Source: Candidatus Caldarchaeum subterraneum (GTDB taxonomy: Archaea; Thermoproteota; Nitrososphaeria_A; Caldarchaeales; Caldarchaeaceae). Taken from it: a stretch of 41,765 nt of DNA. Under the pieces are notes generated by a model. It was not told the origin of the DNA and did not search any database. It was given only the letters and a program-made list of their open reading frames with translations. A program made the translations under genes and the position numbers. The stretch's first letter is position 1, and each line of letters opens with the position of its first letter. Below are positions 28,623 through 37,483 of this stretch, piece by piece. The DNA is taken from contig CALHAG010000015.1 of assembly GCA_937934305.1 (NCBI GenBank), forward strand, positions 1-41,765, in the 5' to 3' direction.

Positions 28623-29765
28623 TTGCCCCGCGACAGGAGATGGCTGCTTCTTTCATGGTTGTTTGTCGACCGAATAGTCTACACCCTTAACTGGCTCGCA
28701 ATCTCTCCGGCCCAGCCCTTTCTCGCAACAGAATTCAACATAGGTTTAAGCGCGCTCGGAATACTTGGAGCAGTTTTTCTCCTCGGTGTAGCCCTTTTCC
28801 AGCTTCCTGCGGCGATTTTGGCTGCACGTTATGGGGCCAAGAAGATAGCGTTGCTCGGCTTGTTTCTCTCCTCATTTTTCGCAGGTTTGTGTGGTCTGGC
28901 TCCCGCCTTCGAGTATCTTCTGGTTCTCCGTTTCCTGACGGGGGTTTTTCTCAGTTTCTTCTTCGGACCCGGCATCACCTTCTTCACCCCGTTGTTCAAC
29001 ACACGCGAGAGAGGAACCGCTGTCGGCGTCTATAACGCGGGGTTTCACACAGGTACGCTTGTTACGCTGGGTGTATGGCCAACCATAATGAGCTTGTATG
29101 GTTGGAGGCTTGGTTTACTTGTTCCCGGCGTGGCTGGTGTGTTGCTGGCTTTCGCCACCTACTGGGTGTCGAGATGGGTGGAGGACCCGGTTGACCCGCG
29201 TGGAGTTCATGTGTCAACCATTGGGAACAGGCTTGTTCTCTACTCTGCTCTCGGACTCGGGTTCGCTGGTGCTGCTTGGTATCCGTTGACACAGTTCGGC
29301 ATCCTTTACCTAACCAGCGAAGCTAAGCTCGACGTCGGCATCGCTGGGGCTATGGTGTCTGTTTTGTCGCTGGGCAGTGTTGTGGGTGCGCCTCTGTCCG
29401 GCAGGCTCTATGATAGGGCCCGTGACCGGAAACGCCTCCTCTACCTTCTTAACCTCCTCAACTCAGTCTCCCTTGCAGCCTTCTCTATCAGCCCCGTTCA
29501 AGCCATCATCCCGATTGTTTTCATGACAGGCCTCTTCTACACAGCGTCAAACAACCTCTACTACGTCACGCCTATGATGGTTGTCAGCCAGTCGGAAATC
29601 GCGGTGACAGTTGCGACCGTTAACATGGTGCATCTTCTCGCGGCATCGGCTATTCCCTACGTGTTTTCGGCCGTGGCGGAGAGCTGGGGATATTTCGCGG
29701 GATGGATGATGATGGTTTTTGTTAGTTTGTTGGCTGTTTTGTGTGTTTGGCGGATGAGGTTTTAA
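28623..29765 (+). CDS. Major facilitator superfamily transporter
   Basis: A 380-residue MFS transporter with twelve predicted membrane helices. The loop 2-3 motif reads AARYGAKKIALLGLFLSS, resembling the family's GxxxDRxGRR box, and GRLYDRARDRKRLLYL repeats it between helices 8 and 9. The start is TTG 28623, one base after the atpB stop. No neighbour points to a substrate; nitrate or organic-anion transport are guesses. Confidence 0.85.
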   Translation: MPRDRRWLLLSWLFVDRIVYTLNWLAISPAQPFLATEFNIGLSALGILGAVFLLGVALFQLPAAILAARYGAKKIALLGLFLSSFFAGLCGLAPAFEYLLVLRFLTGVFLSFFFGPGITFFTPLFNTRERGTAVGVYNAGFHTGTLVTLGVWPTIMSLYGWRLGLLVPGVAGVLLAFATYWVSRWVEDPVDPRGVHVSTIGNRLVLYSALGLGFAGAAWYPLTQFGILYLTSEAKLDVGIAGAMVSVLSLGSVVGAPLSGRLYDRARDRKRLLYLLNLLNSVSLAAFSISPVQAIIPIVFMTGLFYTASNNLYYVTPMMVVSQSEIAVTVATVNMVHLLAASAIPYVFSAVAESWGYFAGWMMMVFVSLLAVLCVWRMRF

Positions 29766-29816: not shown

Positions 29817-30290
29817 ATGAACGTTTTCGAGGAAGCCGAGGAGATAATGGAGAACGCCTTGGTCTCCTCCCTTAGCGTAGTAACTCCCTCGGGAGAGGTT
29901 TTGACAAACCCCATGCTTCCACTCTACAGCCGCGAACGCAAAAAACTCTACATGACATCCAGCATACTCTTCAGCAAGAAAATCAACTACATCAAACAGA
30001 ACCCGCGTGTTGGCGTGCTTTTCAGCGGCCGACCATTCATCAAAACGCCGCGATATTCCGCACTACACGTCAAAGGCGACGCGAAAATCTACGAGGAAAA
30101 CCTTCACAGCGGCTGGGAGTGGCTTGTCGACTTGTGGCGCGCGAAGGAGCCCTACATAGAGGCCTTCATCAAGCAAAGGGTTGCTCTACCACTTTTCTGG
30201 GAAAGAGCAGTGATTGAGATTGAGCCGAGAGAATTGCTACTGTGGCCCGGTGGCGATTTTTCAAGGGAGCCGCTGAGGTGGAGGGCATGA
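29817..30290 (+). CDS. Pyridoxamine 5'-phosphate oxidase-like flavin-binding protein
   Basis: A 157-residue split-barrel protein of the PNPOx-like FMN/F420-binding superfamily. The core runs ALVSSLSVVTPSGEVLTNPM, KLYMTSSILFSKKINYIKQN and PRVGVLFSG, matching the strands that contact the cofactor phosphate. It is expressed from a leaderless promoter and overlaps the next gene by four bases (ATGA). The N-terminus of that next gene is a second PNPOx-like domain, so the two may pair as a heterodimeric flavoprotein attached to the prenyltransferase. Confidence 0.8.
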   Translation: MNVFEEAEEIMENALVSSLSVVTPSGEVLTNPMLPLYSRERKKLYMTSSILFSKKINYIKQNPRVGVLFSGRPFIKTPRYSALHVKGDAKIYEENLHSGWEWLVDLWRAKEPYIEAFIKQRVALPLFWERAVIEIEPRELLLWPGGDFSREPLRWRA

Positions 30291-31612
30291 GCATCGCGGC
30301 CGAGATAGAGAAATACAGCGACGTGGTCGTCTCATACCTCGACCGGGACGGCTATCCCATCAGCTTCTCCACAACCATGAGATACAGCGAAGGCAAACTC
30401 ATCATCGAAAAACCGCCATATCTCAACCCACCCAAGAAAATAACCGTCCTCCTGAACCACATAACCCCACTACCCACAGGAGGATACACCGACAGAAGAT
30501 ACTTGATGATGAAGGGCGAAGCCTTGACAGAGGGCAACACCATTATCTTCAAACCATTCAAGCAATATGGATGGGACGAGAAAACCAAACCATTCTTCCA
30601 ATACTGTGAAGAAAGAGTTCCGCAGGCGAAAAGCTATGTGACAAGGTTGAGCAAGGCTTTGGGCAGGCAGGTTAAACCGCGTCTTCCAACGCTTCAACTC
30701 CTCTTCAGAGCAACAAGGTTCCCATTCCTCACAGCAACCGCCGCACCCGTCCTTATCGGAGTAGGCACAGCCGCCTACCTAGGCTACTTCGACCCGCTGC
30801 TCTTCATCCTTACACTGGTAGGCGCGAGCCTGATACATCTCGCCCTCAACATGACAAACGACTACTACGACACAAAACTCGGAGCAGACCCTGCAAACAT
30901 CACGCCAACACCTTTCAGCGGAGGCTCACGAATACTACACTACGGTCTAATGACACCTAAGCAACTGCTGTCGCTAATTGTGCTCTTCTACGGCGTCGGC
31001 ATAGCGATAGGCCTCTACCTCGCTTTTCTCAGGGGCCTCATACCGATACTGGCGGTGATGACCACAGGTGTCTTGATAAGTATCTTCTACACTGCTCCGC
31101 CTCTCAAGCTTGCCTACAGAGGGTTGGGTGAGTTAGCTGTGGGTATAGGCTTCGGCCCAATCATCGTTCTCGGAAGCCACTACGTCCAGACACAGTTTTT
31201 CTCCCTCGAGGCCCTCGTCGCCTCTATACCCATAGGCATACTCATAATGCTCATTCTCTATGTCAACGAGATACCTGACGCACCCTACGACAAAGCAGCA
31301 GGGAAACTAACACTGGTCACACGTCTCTCAAGAGAAAACGTGCTCAAGGGATACAAGCTATCTCTCGCAGCCACCTACGCCGTGATAGTGGCCGCTGTGG
31401 CTCTGAGACTGGCTCCGCCGACTACACTGATAGCCCTCGCCACAATCCCAAAAGCCATCTCAACAGTTAGAAACGTCGCCCAGACATACGGCAACCCCTA
31501 CCTAATGATTCCAGCCCTCGCGTCCAACATCAACGTCGCAACCCTCACAGGACTGCTGCACGCCGCAGGCTTCTTCCTCTGGGCCCTAATTTCATTCACA
31601 ATAAATCTATAA
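30287..31612 (+). CDS. Fusion of a PNPOx-like flavin domain with a UbiA prenyltransferase
   Basis: A 441-residue protein. Residues 1 to ~130 resemble a PNPOx-like split barrel (VVVSYLDRDGYPISFSTTMR, KITVLLNHI, YLMMKGEA), and residues ~145-441 form a UbiA-type membrane prenyltransferase. The two Asp-rich motifs are NMTNDYYDTKLGAD near 188-201 and NEIPDAPYDKAAGK near 326-339. UbiA enzymes of the MenA group attach an isoprenoid tail to an aromatic ring in menaquinone synthesis. I chose ATG 30287, which overlaps the upstream stop by four bases; the frame begins at 30242. A soluble flavin domain joined to UbiA is unusual; a local redox step on the ring before or after prenylation is one possibility. 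Confidence 0.82.
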   Translation: MSIAAEIEKYSDVVVSYLDRDGYPISFSTTMRYSEGKLIIEKPPYLNPPKKITVLLNHITPLPTGGYTDRRYLMMKGEALTEGNTIIFKPFKQYGWDEKTKPFFQYCEERVPQAKSYVTRLSKALGRQVKPRLPTLQLLFRATRFPFLTATAAPVLIGVGTAAYLGYFDPLLFILTLVGASLIHLALNMTNDYYDTKLGADPANITPTPFSGGSRILHYGLMTPKQLLSLIVLFYGVGIAIGLYLAFLRGLIPILAVMTTGVLISIFYTAPPLKLAYRGLGELAVGIGFGPIIVLGSHYVQTQFFSLEALVASIPIGILIMLILYVNEIPDAPYDKAAGKLTLVTRLSRENVLKGYKLSLAATYAVIVAAVALRLAPPTTLIALATIPKAISTVRNVAQTYGNPYLMIPALASNINVATLTGLLHAAGFFLWALISFTINL

Positions 31613-31637: not shown

Positions 31638-32714
31638 ATGGCTAAGAAAACTAAAGCAGGAAAACCCTCTTACGTAGGTGCTCTTCGTGGAAAAGATTTC
31701 CTTAACACAAACGACTTCAGCCAAGAAGAGATAAGCACCATTCTCAAGGCTGCACGAGACCTTCGCGAAAAATTCCGTGCACGCAAACCCACAGAGTATC
31801 TCAAAGGCCAGACGCTTTTCATGCTTTTCTACAACCGCTCACTACGCACCCGAAACAGCTTTGAAGCCGGAATCTACCAGCTCGGTGGACATGCACATTT
31901 CCTCAGCCCTTCAGACGTCTATACACCAACGCTTCCCGAGGACATGATACCTTACCAGACCGAATCCATAGCTGACGTGGCACGTGTTCTCAGCACATAC
32001 GGAGACGCGATAGCTGTCAGGATTTATGGTGACGCGGCGAAGTGGCACATCGGCAGAGGCCACAGGGTCATTCAAGAATTTGCGAAATGGGCCACCATCC
32101 CTGTCCTCAACATGGAGGACGACATCTACCACCCGTTCCAAGCCCTCGCAGACATGATGGCTATACAGGATGTAGCACCCAAGCCCCGCGGCAAGAAATT
32201 CGTCGTCTCCTACGCATATTCTGGAGGGTTGAAGCCCCTCGCCGTTCCCCAGAGCTGCATACTCATAGGAACACAGTTCGGCATGGATGTTGTCCTAGCG
32301 CATCCACCGGGCTTTGAACTCGAGGACCATGTCATAGAAGCATGCAGGAAAAACGTGGAGCAGTATGGTGGCTCATTCACCATCACAAACGACATGAAAG
32401 AAGCCTTCGAAGGAGCGGACTTTGTCTATCCAAAAGCATGGTCGCCGAAGAAATTCTTCCCACCATACAACTCGACCGTTGACAAGGAAGGTGCTATGAA
32501 ATATCAGGACCAGTTCAAAAACTGGATAACCACCCCCGAGTTGATGGATTTGACAAACAGAGGCAAGTACATGCACTGCGGCCCAGCCGACAGAGGTCAG
32601 GAGGTTGTCGACGAGGTGATAGACAGCCCACGCTACTCGCTCTACTTCCAGCAGGCTGAGAACAGGCTGCATGTGCAGAAAGCTGTTATGTCGATGACGA
32701 TGGGGAGAAGATGA
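31638..32714 (+). CDS. Knotted carbamoyltransferase, YgeW/N-acetylornithine carbamoyltransferase-like
   Basis: A 358-residue transcarbamylase. The carbamoyl-phosphate loop SLRTR is at 68-72 in FYNRSLRTRNSFEAG, HPFQ at 165-168, and a proline-rich segment LKPLAVPQS near 198-206 fits the extra loop that knots the acetylornithine/succinylornithine carbamoyltransferases and YgeW. FVYPKAWSP and AENRLHVQKAVM also recall that group rather than true OTCase. The HCLP motif reads HCGP (313-316), a Leu-to-Gly change in the substrate pocket. The next gene's ATG overlaps the stop by four bases. The substrate is probably not ornithine; direction (breakdown or synthesis) is unknown, but a carbamate kinase in the same operon points to carbamoyl phosphate as fuel. 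Confidence 0.82.
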   Translation: MAKKTKAGKPSYVGALRGKDFLNTNDFSQEEISTILKAARDLREKFRARKPTEYLKGQTLFMLFYNRSLRTRNSFEAGIYQLGGHAHFLSPSDVYTPTLPEDMIPYQTESIADVARVLSTYGDAIAVRIYGDAAKWHIGRGHRVIQEFAKWATIPVLNMEDDIYHPFQALADMMAIQDVAPKPRGKKFVVSYAYSGGLKPLAVPQSCILIGTQFGMDVVLAHPPGFELEDHVIEACRKNVEQYGGSFTITNDMKEAFEGADFVYPKAWSPKKFFPPYNSTVDKEGAMKYQDQFKNWITTPELMDLTNRGKYMHCGPADRGQEVVDEVIDSPRYSLYFQQAENRLHVQKAVMSMTMGRR

Positions 32715-33815: not shown

Positions 33816-34244
33816 ATGCTATCCGGGAGGCTTTTTACAGAGATGAGAACTCTCCTCTCAGAGTCTATGTCAAGGCCCGCTGTAGACACGCTGCTGTGGC
33901 ACATGGGTAACAAGTATGGTTTGGCGTTGGGAAGGCGGACGAAAAAGATGGCGAAGACACGGGGAGAGGCTGTTGAGCTTCTGGCAAATGCTGCGCAGAG
34001 GTCTGGCTGGGGAAAAATAACAATCAGCGATGGCTTCGAGACAACCGGGAAAATGGTGGTGGTTTTCGAGAATTGTGTTTTCTGCGAAGGTCTGATAAGT
34101 GAGAAAACATCTGCGTGTAGTTTTCTCTCGGGGATTCTGGCCGGAATAGCTGAGTCGCTCTACGACAAAGGTGTGAGTATTCAGGAGGAGCTTTGCAGAG
34201 CAGCTGGTGGAGGGGTCTGCAGATTCAACATTCAAACGGTGTAG
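33816..34244 (+). CDS. V4R-domain (4-vinyl reductase) small-molecule-binding protein
   Basis: At least 142 residues of a V4R domain, a fold of the NO-signalling/heme-binding HNOB relatives that binds hydrocarbons or other small hydrophobic ligands. The Cys-rich end VVFENCVFCEGL ... TSACSFLSGILAGI ... CRAAGGGVCRFNI is typical. ATG 33816 is the first standard start, but the upstream frame suggests a longer protein. It sits between two PLP enzymes, so it may be a sensor or carrier for the pathway. A regulator role is conjecture. Confidence 0.8.
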   Translation: MLSGRLFTEMRTLLSESMSRPAVDTLLWHMGNKYGLALGRRTKKMAKTRGEAVELLANAAQRSGWGKITISDGFETTGKMVVVFENCVFCEGLISEKTSACSFLSGILAGIAESLYDKGVSIQEELCRAAGGGVCRFNIQTV

Positions 34245-35510: not shown

Positions 35511-36467
35511 ATGGATAGAAGCGAGCTCATCGTTGTGGCTCTTGGAGGCAACGCGCTTCTGAGACGAGGTGACAAGGGGTCTTTTGAAGAGCAGTACAGG
35601 AACGTGGGCGACGCGGCTAAGTATCTCGCCGACATAGTTGAAGCTGGTCATCGGCTTGTCATTACCCACGGCAACGGCCCACAGGTCGGTGCCACGCTTC
35701 TGCGTCATGACGCTGGCCAAAAGCTACACAGCATCCCGGCTTTTCCCATGGATGCCTGCGGAGCCGAGACACAGGGCTTCATAGGCTACATCATTCAGCA
35801 AAACCTTCGCAACGAGCTCAAGAGACGCGGCATCGACAAATACGTGATAACAGTCGTGACACGGGTAATCGTTGATAAAAACGACCCGGCGTTCAGCAAC
35901 CCAACTAAACCCATCGGCCCATTCTACACAAAAGAAGAGATGGAGAAAATCAAGGCGGAGCATCCCGAGTATGTTTTCGTGGAGGACAAGGCCCGAGGAG
36001 GCTGGAGAAGAGTTGTGCCGTCCCCCGACCCAAAAATCATCGCCGAGAGACATGCGATAAGGAAGCTTGTTGACGAAGGGTTCATAGTTGTGGCAAGCGG
36101 CGGAGGCGGGATACCGATAGTTGAAGAAAACGGCAGAGCATATGGGGTGGAGGCAGTAATCGACAAAGACCTCGCAGGTGAGAAGCTCGCCGAATTGATC
36201 GGGGCAGACCGTTTCATCATTCTGACAGATGTCGACGGAGCCTACTTAAACTATGGAAAACCTGACCAGAAGAAGCTGGAGAAAGTGTCAGCGGCTGAGG
36301 CGAGGCGCTACCTGGAGCAAGGACATTTCGGCTCAGGCTCGATGCTTCCCAAGGTGTTGGCATGCATAAGGTTTATCGAGGCAGGCGGCAAAGAGGCAGT
36401 GATCGCCGAGCTTTCTCAATTTAAGGAAGCTTTGGCAGGCTCGGCGGGAACCCACTTTACTCCCTAA
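35511..36467 (+). CDS. arcC: Carbamate kinase
   Basis: A 318-residue carbamate kinase of the amino-acid-kinase fold, forming ATP from ADP and carbamoyl phosphate. The N-terminal VVALGGNALLRRGDKG, THGNGPQVG, DACGAETQGFIGY, VVASGGGGIPIV, IDKDLAGEKLA, LTDVDGAYLNYG and FGSGSMLPKV are all family landmarks and length is normal. It is the last gene of the five-gene operon and converges on the second carbamoyltransferase with a shared CTAA stop. Its presence argues that the carbamoyltransferases run toward carbamoyl phosphate and that ATP is conserved. Confidence 0.96.
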   Translation: MDRSELIVVALGGNALLRRGDKGSFEEQYRNVGDAAKYLADIVEAGHRLVITHGNGPQVGATLLRHDAGQKLHSIPAFPMDACGAETQGFIGYIIQQNLRNELKRRGIDKYVITVVTRVIVDKNDPAFSNPTKPIGPFYTKEEMEKIKAEHPEYVFVEDKARGGWRRVVPSPDPKIIAERHAIRKLVDEGFIVVASGGGGIPIVEENGRAYGVEAVIDKDLAGEKLAELIGADRFIILTDVDGAYLNYGKPDQKKLEKVSAAEARRYLEQGHFGSGSMLPKVLACIRFIEAGGKEAVIAELSQFKEALAGSAGTHFTP

Positions 36468-37483
36468 ATTTTTCCAGCCACCAAAGCCAGTATAGCCGCT
36501 CTCACATAGAGCAGGTTCTCAGCCTGGTCGTATATCACGCTTCGCGGACCGTCCATAACATCGTCATCCGCCTCCTGTCCACGGAACACTGGAAGCACAT
36601 GCGTCACTATACCATGCCTTGACATGAGGTCTGTCAACTCGCGTGTAAGCTTCCAATCCCTGTATTTGTTGTGCAGCTCGATTTCTTTTTCGCGGCCGAA
36701 CCTGTTCATGCCTGTGATTACACATTCGTGGCTAGCCCAGCTTCTCGGAAAAACCGCGTCAGCGTTTTCGAGAGCCTCTCTGTAGCTGTGGCTGATGGTC
36801 AGGGAGCCGCCGCTCTCCTCCGCGTTCTTTTTCGCCAGCTTCACAAGGTTTTCGTCTATGTCGAAGCCGGGGGGATAAGCGAGAACTACATCCATGCCAT
36901 AGCGGGTGGCTATCAGCATCTCATCCTGTATGCTTCCCCAGCTGCGAACCTTGTCGCTATAAGCCCACATCAAAACATACTTTTTCTTCTCAACCCTTCC
37001 AAGCTTCTCCCGCAGTGTGTAGAGGTCTGTGATGGCTTGGCTTGGGTGAAACATGTCATCAGCCATGTTGATGACAGGGATTTTCGCGTGCTCTGCATAC
37101 TCTCTAACAACCGCGTTCCCCCTTCCATAGACATAGTCCACAGCCGACTCTAGTATCCGGACGCCGAGGACATGCCCTAGCCTCTCATACATCTTGGCTA
37201 TGTCCTTGACCGACTCGCCCTCTGCGCCGCGGGTGGTTGCGAAGTCGATGAACTGTGCGTGTCCTCCGAGCATGGTTGCGGCTGCTTCGAAGCTCGCTCT
37301 TGTCCTTGTGCTGGTGTTGTAGAAGAGCATGAACATGGTTCTGTTTTTAAAAAGCTCGGGAACGTTTCCAGAGGCCCTGGCAATCTTCAAGCTTCGCGCC
37401 AAATCCATCGCTGCATCAATTTCCTCAACACTCCAATCCTGTGAAGAAATCAGGTCCCTGCCAAATAGCTCCGTCAGAGTCAT
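36464..37483 (-). CDS. Second knotted-type carbamoyltransferase
   Basis: A 339-residue paralogue of the carbamoyltransferase at 31638. The carbamoyl-phosphate loop is STRTR at 58-62 (FYNTSTRTRASFEAA) and HPSQ is at 146-149. The loop corresponding to LKPLAVPQ reads SDKVRSWGSIQDE and lacks the prolines, and HCLP reads HVLP (295-298), changing the Cys. AENLLYVRAAILALVAG matches the acetylornithine-type C-terminus. A strong TATA (37505-37513) is 26 bases upstream. Different substitutions in the two copies suggest two substrates. It could also be this organism's biosynthetic ornithine enzyme, but the missing DxxxSMG motif argues against that. Confidence 0.82.
   Translation of the reverse strand: MTLTELFGRDLISSQDWSVEEIDAAMDLARSLKIARASGNVPELFKNRTMFMLFYNTSTRTRASFEAAATMLGGHAQFIDFATTRGAEGESVKDIAKMYERLGHVLGVRILESAVDYVYGRGNAVVREYAEHAKIPVINMADDMFHPSQAITDLYTLREKLGRVEKKKYVLMWAYSDKVRSWGSIQDEMLIATRYGMDVVLAYPPGFDIDENLVKLAKKNAEESGGSLTISHSYREALENADAVFPRSWASHECVITGMNRFGREKEIELHNKYRDWKLTRELTDLMSRHGIVTHVLPVFRGQEADDDVMDGPRSVIYDQAENLLYVRAAILALVAGKI

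Follow-up and report, generated by a model that had tools for sequence, protein, structure and literature searches.

A split-barrel protein gene linked to a split-barrel/UbiA prenyltransferase fusion gene in Caldarchaeales and several bacterial groups: a possible reductase-coupled quinone prenyltransferase

The DNA analysed here, called the window, is a stretch of 41,765 nucleotides from the archaeon Candidatus Caldarchaeum subterraneum (assembly GCA_937934305.1, contig CALHAG010000015.1), whose genome (G000; 1.56 Mb, 97% complete) is of one genus with G001 and G003. It carries two adjacent open reading frames (ORFs): ORF1 encodes a free split-barrel protein, and ORF2 encodes a fusion of a second, degenerate split barrel with a membrane prenyltransferase domain of the UbiA family (Table 1). 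We propose tentatively, at somewhat less than even confidence, that the pair forms one membrane-bound quinone-tail transferase equipped with its own reductase.

RESULTS

Layout of the gene pair

A sequence-only reading of the window had described a free PNPOx-like protein translationally coupled to the fusion. This arrangement was borne out, as both ORFs lie where it placed them and the ORF1 stop codon and the ORF2 start codon share an ATGA overlap, which is consistent with translational coupling. The ORF list began ORF2 at GTG 30242 (456 amino acids (aa), 15 residues longer than from the ATG), and the alignment of relatives begins at ATG 30287, the conserved start, so the protein is taken to be 441 aa long. 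Leaderless archaeal promoters have their TATA box about 25 bp before the start codon. The position of the TATA-box-like sequence TTAAATAAAA, about 25 bp upstream of the ORF1 ATG, fits a putative promoter of this kind, and a scan for bacterial-type promoters gave nothing above chance.

Table 1. Positions of the gene pair, its domains and motifs in the window, and of two further fusions in other genomes
Feature	Position	Strand	Description or basis
TATA-box-like TTAAATAAAA	29788..29797	+	putative, from the letters of the region
ORF1	29817..30290	+	free split-barrel protein, PNPOx/FDOR-B class (predicted), 157 aa
ORF1 residues 47-63, TSSILFSKKINYIKQNP	29955..30005	+	end of a strand and helix; alignment of 52 rows
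ORF2	30287..31612	+	fusion of split barrel and MenA-type UbiA, 441 aa
ATGA overlap, ORF1 stop/ORF2 start	30287..30290	+	putative translational coupling
Degenerate split-barrel N-domain, residues 1-130	30287..30676	+	profile comparison, predicted fold
N-domain core motif NHITPLPTGGYTDRRY, residues 57-72	30455..30502	+	P61, G66, Y67, R70, R71 invariant in 52/52
UbiA-family membrane prenyltransferase domain, MenA/UBIAD1 subtype	30677..31609	+	Pfam, NCBIfam, fold
First Asp-rich motif NDYYDTKLGAD (191-201)	30857..30889	+	N191, D192, D195, D201 in 52/52
Second Asp-rich motif NEIPDAPYD (327-335)	31265..31291	+	N327, D331, D335 in 52/52
Luciferase-UbiA fusion (L142, L157)	G077:C196:2122-4074
Luciferase-UbiA fusion (L143, L158)	G086:C258:3320-5266

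Fixed linkage, distribution and phylogeny

A scan of named genomes gave 237 relatives; the 80 best loci were retained, and 57 loci together with the window were examined for linkage. The N-terminal domain (N-domain) of the fusion is present in 51 of the 57 loci and in the window, and ORF1 lies directly upstream in all 52; L074 and L078, which begin at or near contig ends, fall outside the ORF1 check. The gap between the two genes is -8 to +7 bp in 41 of the 52 and 16 to 113 bp in 10; it is unreliable in L076, whose fusion row has no in-frame start codon and was excluded from alignments A3 and A4 but included in the counts of 52. Alignment A4 holds 41 of the 52 fusion rows, A5 holds 39 of the 52 ORF1 rows, and A3 combines six read-through with 39 single rows. 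Since the fusion is kept by 52 loci from many assemblies, an assembly or start-codon artefact is ruled out, and their conservation in two domains of life, at identities as low as about 40%, indicates that neither the fusion nor the pair is due to chance.

The hosts are Caldarchaeales-type archaea, Actinomycetota (Thermoleophilia, Acidimicrobiia and Frankiales), Chloroflexota including Thermoflexus, and one member of the Acidobacteriota. An N-domain profile matched 18 of 300 genomes in the window's phylum, all within two families of the window's order, and 15 of 396 genomes in the phylum to which the Thermoleophilia locus belongs, the match in G596 being weak. In these 696 genomes the matches lie in frames of at least 436 aa, enough to hold the fusion, except for the contig-edge G026 and the weak G596, and the UbiA part was checked in all but nine genomes, those new to the 396-genome search. 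The other members of the window's order mostly have only an unfused UbiA (about 29-40% identity) or no match. The domain-architecture survey that had been suggested as a check on the fusion thus places it in several bacterial groups and, among archaea, in two families of a single order. It had been called unusual, which agrees with our literature search, where no report of a split-barrel/UbiA fusion turned up; what does not hold is any idea of a local oddity, the fusion being a widespread conserved unit.

In a UbiA tree of 98 rows (midpoint root only; one gene present twice, as L028 and L161; L110, titled archaeon, counted as bacterial), the fused proteins form one group of 54 rows including two cut ones, with support of 100/98, which splits into an archaeal part of 19 rows (99/94) and a bacterial part of 35 rows (100/92). 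Beside it stand six Chloroflexota UbiAs whose N-terminal extension is of another kind (joint fork 100/95). A single fusion event with an old transfer and shared ancestry are both possible. These six proteins (L081, L084, L085, L086, L089 and L094) are 480-515 aa long with an extension of about 185 aa, and a Pfam scan of this extension in L081, L085 and L089 gave no match.

Predicted split barrels of ORF1 and of the fusion

The Pfam model PNPOx_N (PF01243) matched the ORF1 of the window weakly (E 7.1e-5, 23.6 bits, short of the gathering score of 28.1) and all 39 scanned ORF1 proteins at E<=0.01, and the F420-dependent Rv1155-type model matched 38 of the 39 at that threshold. Against TIGR03618 the window protein scored 17, far below the cut-off of 79.05, and PF04075 (Ddn-type, FDOR-A) matched one of the 39 (E 0.0021). 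In a joint predicted model of the pair from the relative L036 (predicted local distance difference test, pLDDT, 89.8), ORF1 (residues 1-157) adopts a split-barrel fold nearest to Rv2074 with F420 (Z 14.7, 129 residues aligned, root-mean-square deviation (rmsd) 2.4), and MSMEG_6526 and others also match. A PDB sequence search with ORF1 found no convincing relative, the best E of the ORF1 profile being 0.0068 (PNP oxidase). Residues 47-63 occupy what we take to be the place where split-barrel proteins bind the cofactor phosphate; S48, L51, F52, S53 and K55 are invariant in 52 of 52 rows, and in the C-terminal part KEP...PLFxER is conserved. Judged by homology and predicted fold, ORF1 is a PNPOx/F420-class split-barrel protein that keeps a putative phosphate-binding segment. 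It resembles the FDOR-B/PNPOx proteins Rv1155, Rv2074 and MSMEG_6526 in its fold and in matching the F420-dependent PPOX model; it differs from them in its KEP...PLFxER segment and in directly preceding a membrane prenyltransferase in 52 of 52 checked loci, ORF1 homologues elsewhere not having been searched.

The N-domain of the fusion is harder to recognise. A Pfam scan of the window N-domain gave no match at E<=1, PNPOx_N appeared at E<=1 in just 3 of 41 scanned N-domains (best 0.0034), and a PDB sequence search found no convincing relative. Profile comparison between the N-domain and ORF1 gave an E of 4.5e-6 (probability 86.6), and the AlphaFold model of the N-domain is a beta barrel with a pLDDT of 93.9. 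Structure comparison (Foldseek, VIA) reached a best Z of 9.7 with 99 residues aligned and an rmsd of 3.3, only moderately above the stated background of 7 to 8, and the PDB matches listed are, judging by their titles, presumably split barrels that bind F420, FMN (flavin mononucleotide), FAD (flavin adenine dinucleotide) or heme. The N-domain is therefore a split barrel by predicted fold, which rules out taking the Pfam miss as a sign of some other fold; a structure prediction without a split barrel at the N-terminus had been named as the outcome that would refute the sequence-only reading, and the prediction came out the other way. Across the 52 rows, G22, P24, P61, G66, Y67, R70, R71, W96, E98, F103, E108 and Y117 are invariant. 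The N-domain model has no helix between strands 37-41 and 51-61, where the L036 ORF1 has helix 55-62 after its fourth strand. Because this phosphate-binding helix is absent, the sequence-only reading of tandem PNPOx-like flavin domains stands for two barrels, by fold and homology, and the word flavin is not established for the second.

The missing helix also bears on whether the N-terminal barrel might be a sensor or scaffold that reads a cofactor or the heme/redox state and controls the prenyltransferase without being catalytic itself. The fold matches of the N-domain include GluTR-binding protein, HupZ and HutZ, which are regulatory or heme-binding barrels, and would agree with such a role. 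Drift in sequence would be expected of a barrel that only regulates, yet the 12 N-domain residues and those of the ORF1 cofactor site do not vary in any of the 52 rows, which range from archaea to Actinomycetota, and we consider this role quite unlikely.

The UbiA domain resembles MenA and UBIAD1

The C-terminal two thirds of ORF2 match PF01040 above its gathering score (94.4 bits vs 34.2, E 9.1e-27). The best NCBIfam matches are MenA models, none of them over its cut-off (NF004751, 171.3 vs 264; TIGR00751, 98.7 vs 102.15). The model of the relative L036, rather than of the window protein, has the UbiA helical membrane fold, with UBIAD1 (Z 27.4, 272 residues aligned, rmsd 3.0) as the nearest solved structure; the Aeropyrum pernix UbiA matches with Z 24.5. 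The fusion thus agrees with MenA/UBIAD1 in fold, in both Asp-rich motifs and in its best NCBIfam and solved-structure matches, and differs from them by its N-terminal split barrel, its coupled partner and scores under every MenA cut-off. Digeranylgeranylglyceryl phosphate (DGGGP) synthase, an enzyme of archaeal lipids, was rejected as the identity of the domain, since no such NCBIfam model is among the matches and the unit also occurs in bacteria; the fold alone does not decide against it, because solved DGGGP synthases rank 4-5 by fold against the L036 model.

Quinone genes beside the pair in Thermoleophilia

Neighbouring genes were predicted with a codon-scored caller and then clustered, and in most loci the neighbours were clustered without identification. 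In the Thermoleophilia locus L047, seven consecutive genes read in one direction, overlapping or no more than 26 bp apart. A Rieske protein gene comes first, followed by genes for a cytochrome b6 type protein and for a cytochrome b C-terminus that also matches cytochrome c weakly; next are a UbiE/MenG methyltransferase gene that exceeds its cut-off (209 bits) and a gene of the polyprenyl-diphosphate-synthase family, for which no model reaches its cut-off, and the last two are ORF1 and the fusion. By clustering, L057 has the same gene order and L054 has the last three genes. With cytochrome bc-type, UbiE and polyprenyl-diphosphate-synthase-type genes ahead of the pair here, a quinone role is likely. 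Besides the pair itself, no further neighbour is conserved in bacteria by these gene calls and clustering, only lineage-local ones. Among relatives without the fusion, the UbiA gene of seven loci from Omnitrophota and one from Clostridia is followed by a gene of the L047-type polyprenyl-synthase cluster. In the Omnitrophota locus L096 (8-5499), a MenA-like UbiA has Nqr/Rnf-type genes on one side and a member of the polyprenyl-diphosphate-synthase cluster on the other.

The sequence-only reading had left the prenylated molecule as a quinone or a heme precursor. The Thermoleophilia genes for UbiE, a polyprenyl-diphosphate-synthase-type protein, Rieske protein and cytochrome b, together with MenA/UBIAD1 as nearest relatives, favour the first part of this statement, and for the pair a quinone rather than a heme role is likely. 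Were the UbiA domain to prenylate heme or a porphyrin, with HugZ-like barrels handling heme, the heme split barrels among the N-domain fold matches would be accounted for; the sequence models, however, put the UbiA domain with MenA, there is no heme O synthase model among the 14 NCBIfam matches of ORF2 at E<=0.1, and the bacterial gene run includes a UbiE gene, so that we regard a heme-related function as very improbable.

Known quinone pathways are not traced in the fusion-bearing archaea

Sixty genomes were searched for markers of known quinone pathways; 44 of them carry the fusion (17 archaea and 27 bacteria) and 16 lack it, 31 of the total being archaea. HPPD (4-hydroxyphenylpyruvate dioxygenase) was chosen as the marker of the homogentisate route. 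MenB exceeded its cut-off in none of the 60 (best G079 with 331 and G084 with 241 vs 342.7 bits), and neither did MenD. MqnA/MqnD (PF02621) was found in two of the 60, both fusion-bearing bacteria (G063 and G068), and in none of the 31 archaea; in these two bacteria the fusion may have an MqnP-type role. HPPD was found in no archaeon out of 31 and in 15 of the 27 fusion-bearing bacteria, where tyrosine breakdown would also explain it. Among 14 named genomes used as controls, MenB was over cut-off in seven, MenD in seven, MqnA/D in four and HPPD in one. All four markers were missing from 28 of the 44 fusion genomes, including all 17 archaea (G079 counted as MenB, G084 not). On these results, membership of the fusion in the classical, futalosine or homogentisate pathway was rejected, MqnC/MqnE, UbiC and UbiD not having been searched. 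Absence of a marker from a single genome is weak evidence because assemblies are incomplete; absence across the 17 fusion-bearing archaea is firmer.

Each of the eight genomes from the window's family (two of them about 80% complete) has the fusion as its sole MenA-like match at E<=1e-15. The F420 gene cofD was found in 37 of the 44 fusion genomes (in G003 only as a below-cut-off fragment) vs 7 of the 16 others (Fisher p 0.006, the related genomes not being independent). Of the archaea with the fusion, P. maunauluense (L035) and C. fumarioli (L038) are reported to encode cytochrome c oxidase genes (PMC10547907), and should therefore need a quinone or a like carrier. The quinone ring of the surveyed fusion-bearing archaea is thus untraceable by the four pathway markers, yet two of them encode cytochrome c oxidase. 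Of 97 archaea, only 28 had the full menaquinone pathway in the study of Zhi et al. (2014), which also reports the futalosine pathway in some Thaumarchaeota (PMC3914697). Methyl-plastoquinone of Nitrospira, as described in PMC12324825, was a new quinone hidden behind incomplete known pathways, and so shows that microbes which respire without a complete known pathway can have an undescribed quinone; the present case differs in that the homogentisate-route marker HPPD is absent from 31 of the 31 archaea tested.

A ready-made ring could also come from outside. In this case a naphthoquinone or a ring like 1,4-dihydroxy-2-naphthoate would be taken up, reduced by the split barrel and then prenylated, much as UBIAD1 converts menadione to menaquinone-4. 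UBIAD1 is the closest solved structure, and the 17 fusion-bearing archaea keep a MenA-type prenyltransferase without MenD over cut-off and without MqnA/D. Transporter genes are often near: a major facilitator superfamily (MFS) gene lies directly upstream of the pair in six loci of the window's branch (the window, 28623-29765 on the + strand, and L031-L035), and genes of ATP-binding cassette (ABC) transporter type, identified by cluster, stand divergently upstream in nine Chloroflexota loci (L052, L064-L067, L069, L072, L082 and L108). However, no single transporter family is common to all lineages, and retention of the pair through two archaeal families and several bacterial groups would be odd for a dependence on neighbours. 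We therefore judge salvage unlikely, and return below to the pair as a transferase with a built-in reductase.

A second pairing of an F420-class fold with a MenA-like UbiA

Two genes upstream of the pair in L058 (2647-4644), a 665-aa gene joins a luciferase-like F420-class (Mer-type) oxidoreductase to a MenA-like UbiA. Full-length homologues (62-63%) were found in 2 more of the 32 genomes searched, both of Frankiales and both with the split-barrel fusion (Table 1). An Rce1-like membrane protein gene follows the luciferase-like/UbiA fusion genes, and two of the three, those of Frankiales, adjoin a UbiE gene over cut-off. In the 98-row tree the luciferase-fused UbiAs make up a separate clade that groups with unfused UbiAs of archaea, and 5 of 11 loci of the latter have luciferase-like and Rce1-like genes as neighbours (by BLAST and clustering, with Pfam checks on some). 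The eight genomes that have the luciferase-like pairing (G008, G014, G018, G024, G039, G069, G077 and G086) all carry cofD. Because the luciferase-like fold is unrelated and its UbiA clade separate, the pairing of an F420-class fold with a MenA-like UbiA arose more than once, which suggests that the coupling of reductase and prenyltransferase is itself selected. The five loci, all from the window's order, are L147, L148, L150, L151 and L152; in L148 there are in addition a UbiX-like flavoprotein (PF02441) and a fusion of COX1 with COX3.

An FAD reductase gene (Pfam FAD_binding_3; a geranylgeranyl reductase by eye) adjoins the luciferase-fused UbiA in Frankiales (L157 by scan, L158 by clustering). 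This neighbour would suit a different function, in which the barrels reduce double bonds of the polyprenyl tail after prenylation and give partly saturated quinones. Tail saturation is done elsewhere by geranylgeranyl reductases, which counts against such a function for the barrels, and no reason to sit on the prenyltransferase is evident. Although F420-class enzymes do reduce activated alkenes (PMC8498797), tail saturation by the barrels has in our view a small chance of being correct.

A membrane-bound transferase with its own reductase

In the proposed mechanism, the UbiA domain would attach a polyprenyl chain to an aromatic quinone precursor in the manner of MenA and UBIAD1. ORF1, with its phosphate-binding segment kept, may dock onto the N-terminal barrel of the fusion, which, its own phosphate-binding helix lost, would serve as the permanent second half of a heterodimeric split barrel with one site. 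Using F420H2 or reduced FMN, ORF1 might then keep either the acceptor or the new product as the hydroquinone, the cofactor, direction and acceptor all being presumed; this form would be needed for prenylation and for later UbiE-type methylation. Split-barrel oxidoreductases act as dimers with the cofactor between the halves, and a heterodimer with one working site is suggested because a degenerate barrel sits on the membrane enzyme and an intact barrel is encoded just before it. UBIAD1-type prenylation acts on reduced rings, and reduction coupled to prenylation appears to be the simplest reading, with ring salvage, saturation of the tail and redox sensing as live alternatives. The suggestion of the sequence-only reading that the pair could bring FMN or F420 chemistry to the membrane site of prenylation is thus supported in part, as regards the joined and coupled domains and the quinone role; cofactor binding and the coupling of the two reactions are putative. 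Mycobacterial split barrels of the Ddn type reduce quinones with F420H2 (PMC3567243, PMC8498797). The Ddn/Fqr proteins (FDOR-A) are thus alike in being split barrels that act on quinones (PMC3567243), and differ in belonging to another branch (PF04075 in 1 of 39 ORF1 proteins); the review PMC8498797 makes no link to a prenyltransferase, a word with 0 mentions in it.

Several observations weigh against this proposal. A further MenA-like gene is present in 14 of the 27 fusion-bearing bacteria and 3 of the 17 fusion-bearing archaea, so the fusion need not be the main quinone enzyme of those carriers. None of the UbiE-type methyltransferases in the 31 archaea reaches its cut-off. UbiE and/or polyprenyl-diphosphate-synthase-type neighbours occur in 3 of 52 loci only (L047 and L057; in L054 the synthase alone), and the neighbours in the window are genes for an A-type ATPase (by eye), an MFS protein, a carbamoyltransferase and a cysteine synthase; throughout the window's branch the genes around the pair are unrelated to quinones. 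In addition, cofD is missing from seven of the 27 fusion-bearing bacterial assemblies, which leaves FMN as a possible cofactor.

A broader claim, that F420H2- or FMN-coupled prenylation marks an undescribed respiratory-quinone route in Caldarchaeales and in parts of Chloroflexota and Actinomycetota, with two unrelated F420-class folds, the split barrel and the luciferase-like TIM barrel, each recruited onto MenA-type enzymes for it, has in our view a real chance but is less likely than not. Whichever route is used, the pair links quinone-type prenylation with a redox module and so offers a direct handle on the quinone product.

Other genes of the window

A small V4R-domain protein is encoded at 33816-34244 (PF02830, 47 bits; weak MsvR match), and a Pfam scan of it gave no DNA-binding match. 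Two carbamoyltransferases of the ornithine/acetylornithine type, below every listed curated cut-off, are encoded at 31638-32714 (+) and 36464-37483 (-), and genes of the cysteine-synthase and threonine-synthase types stand between them.

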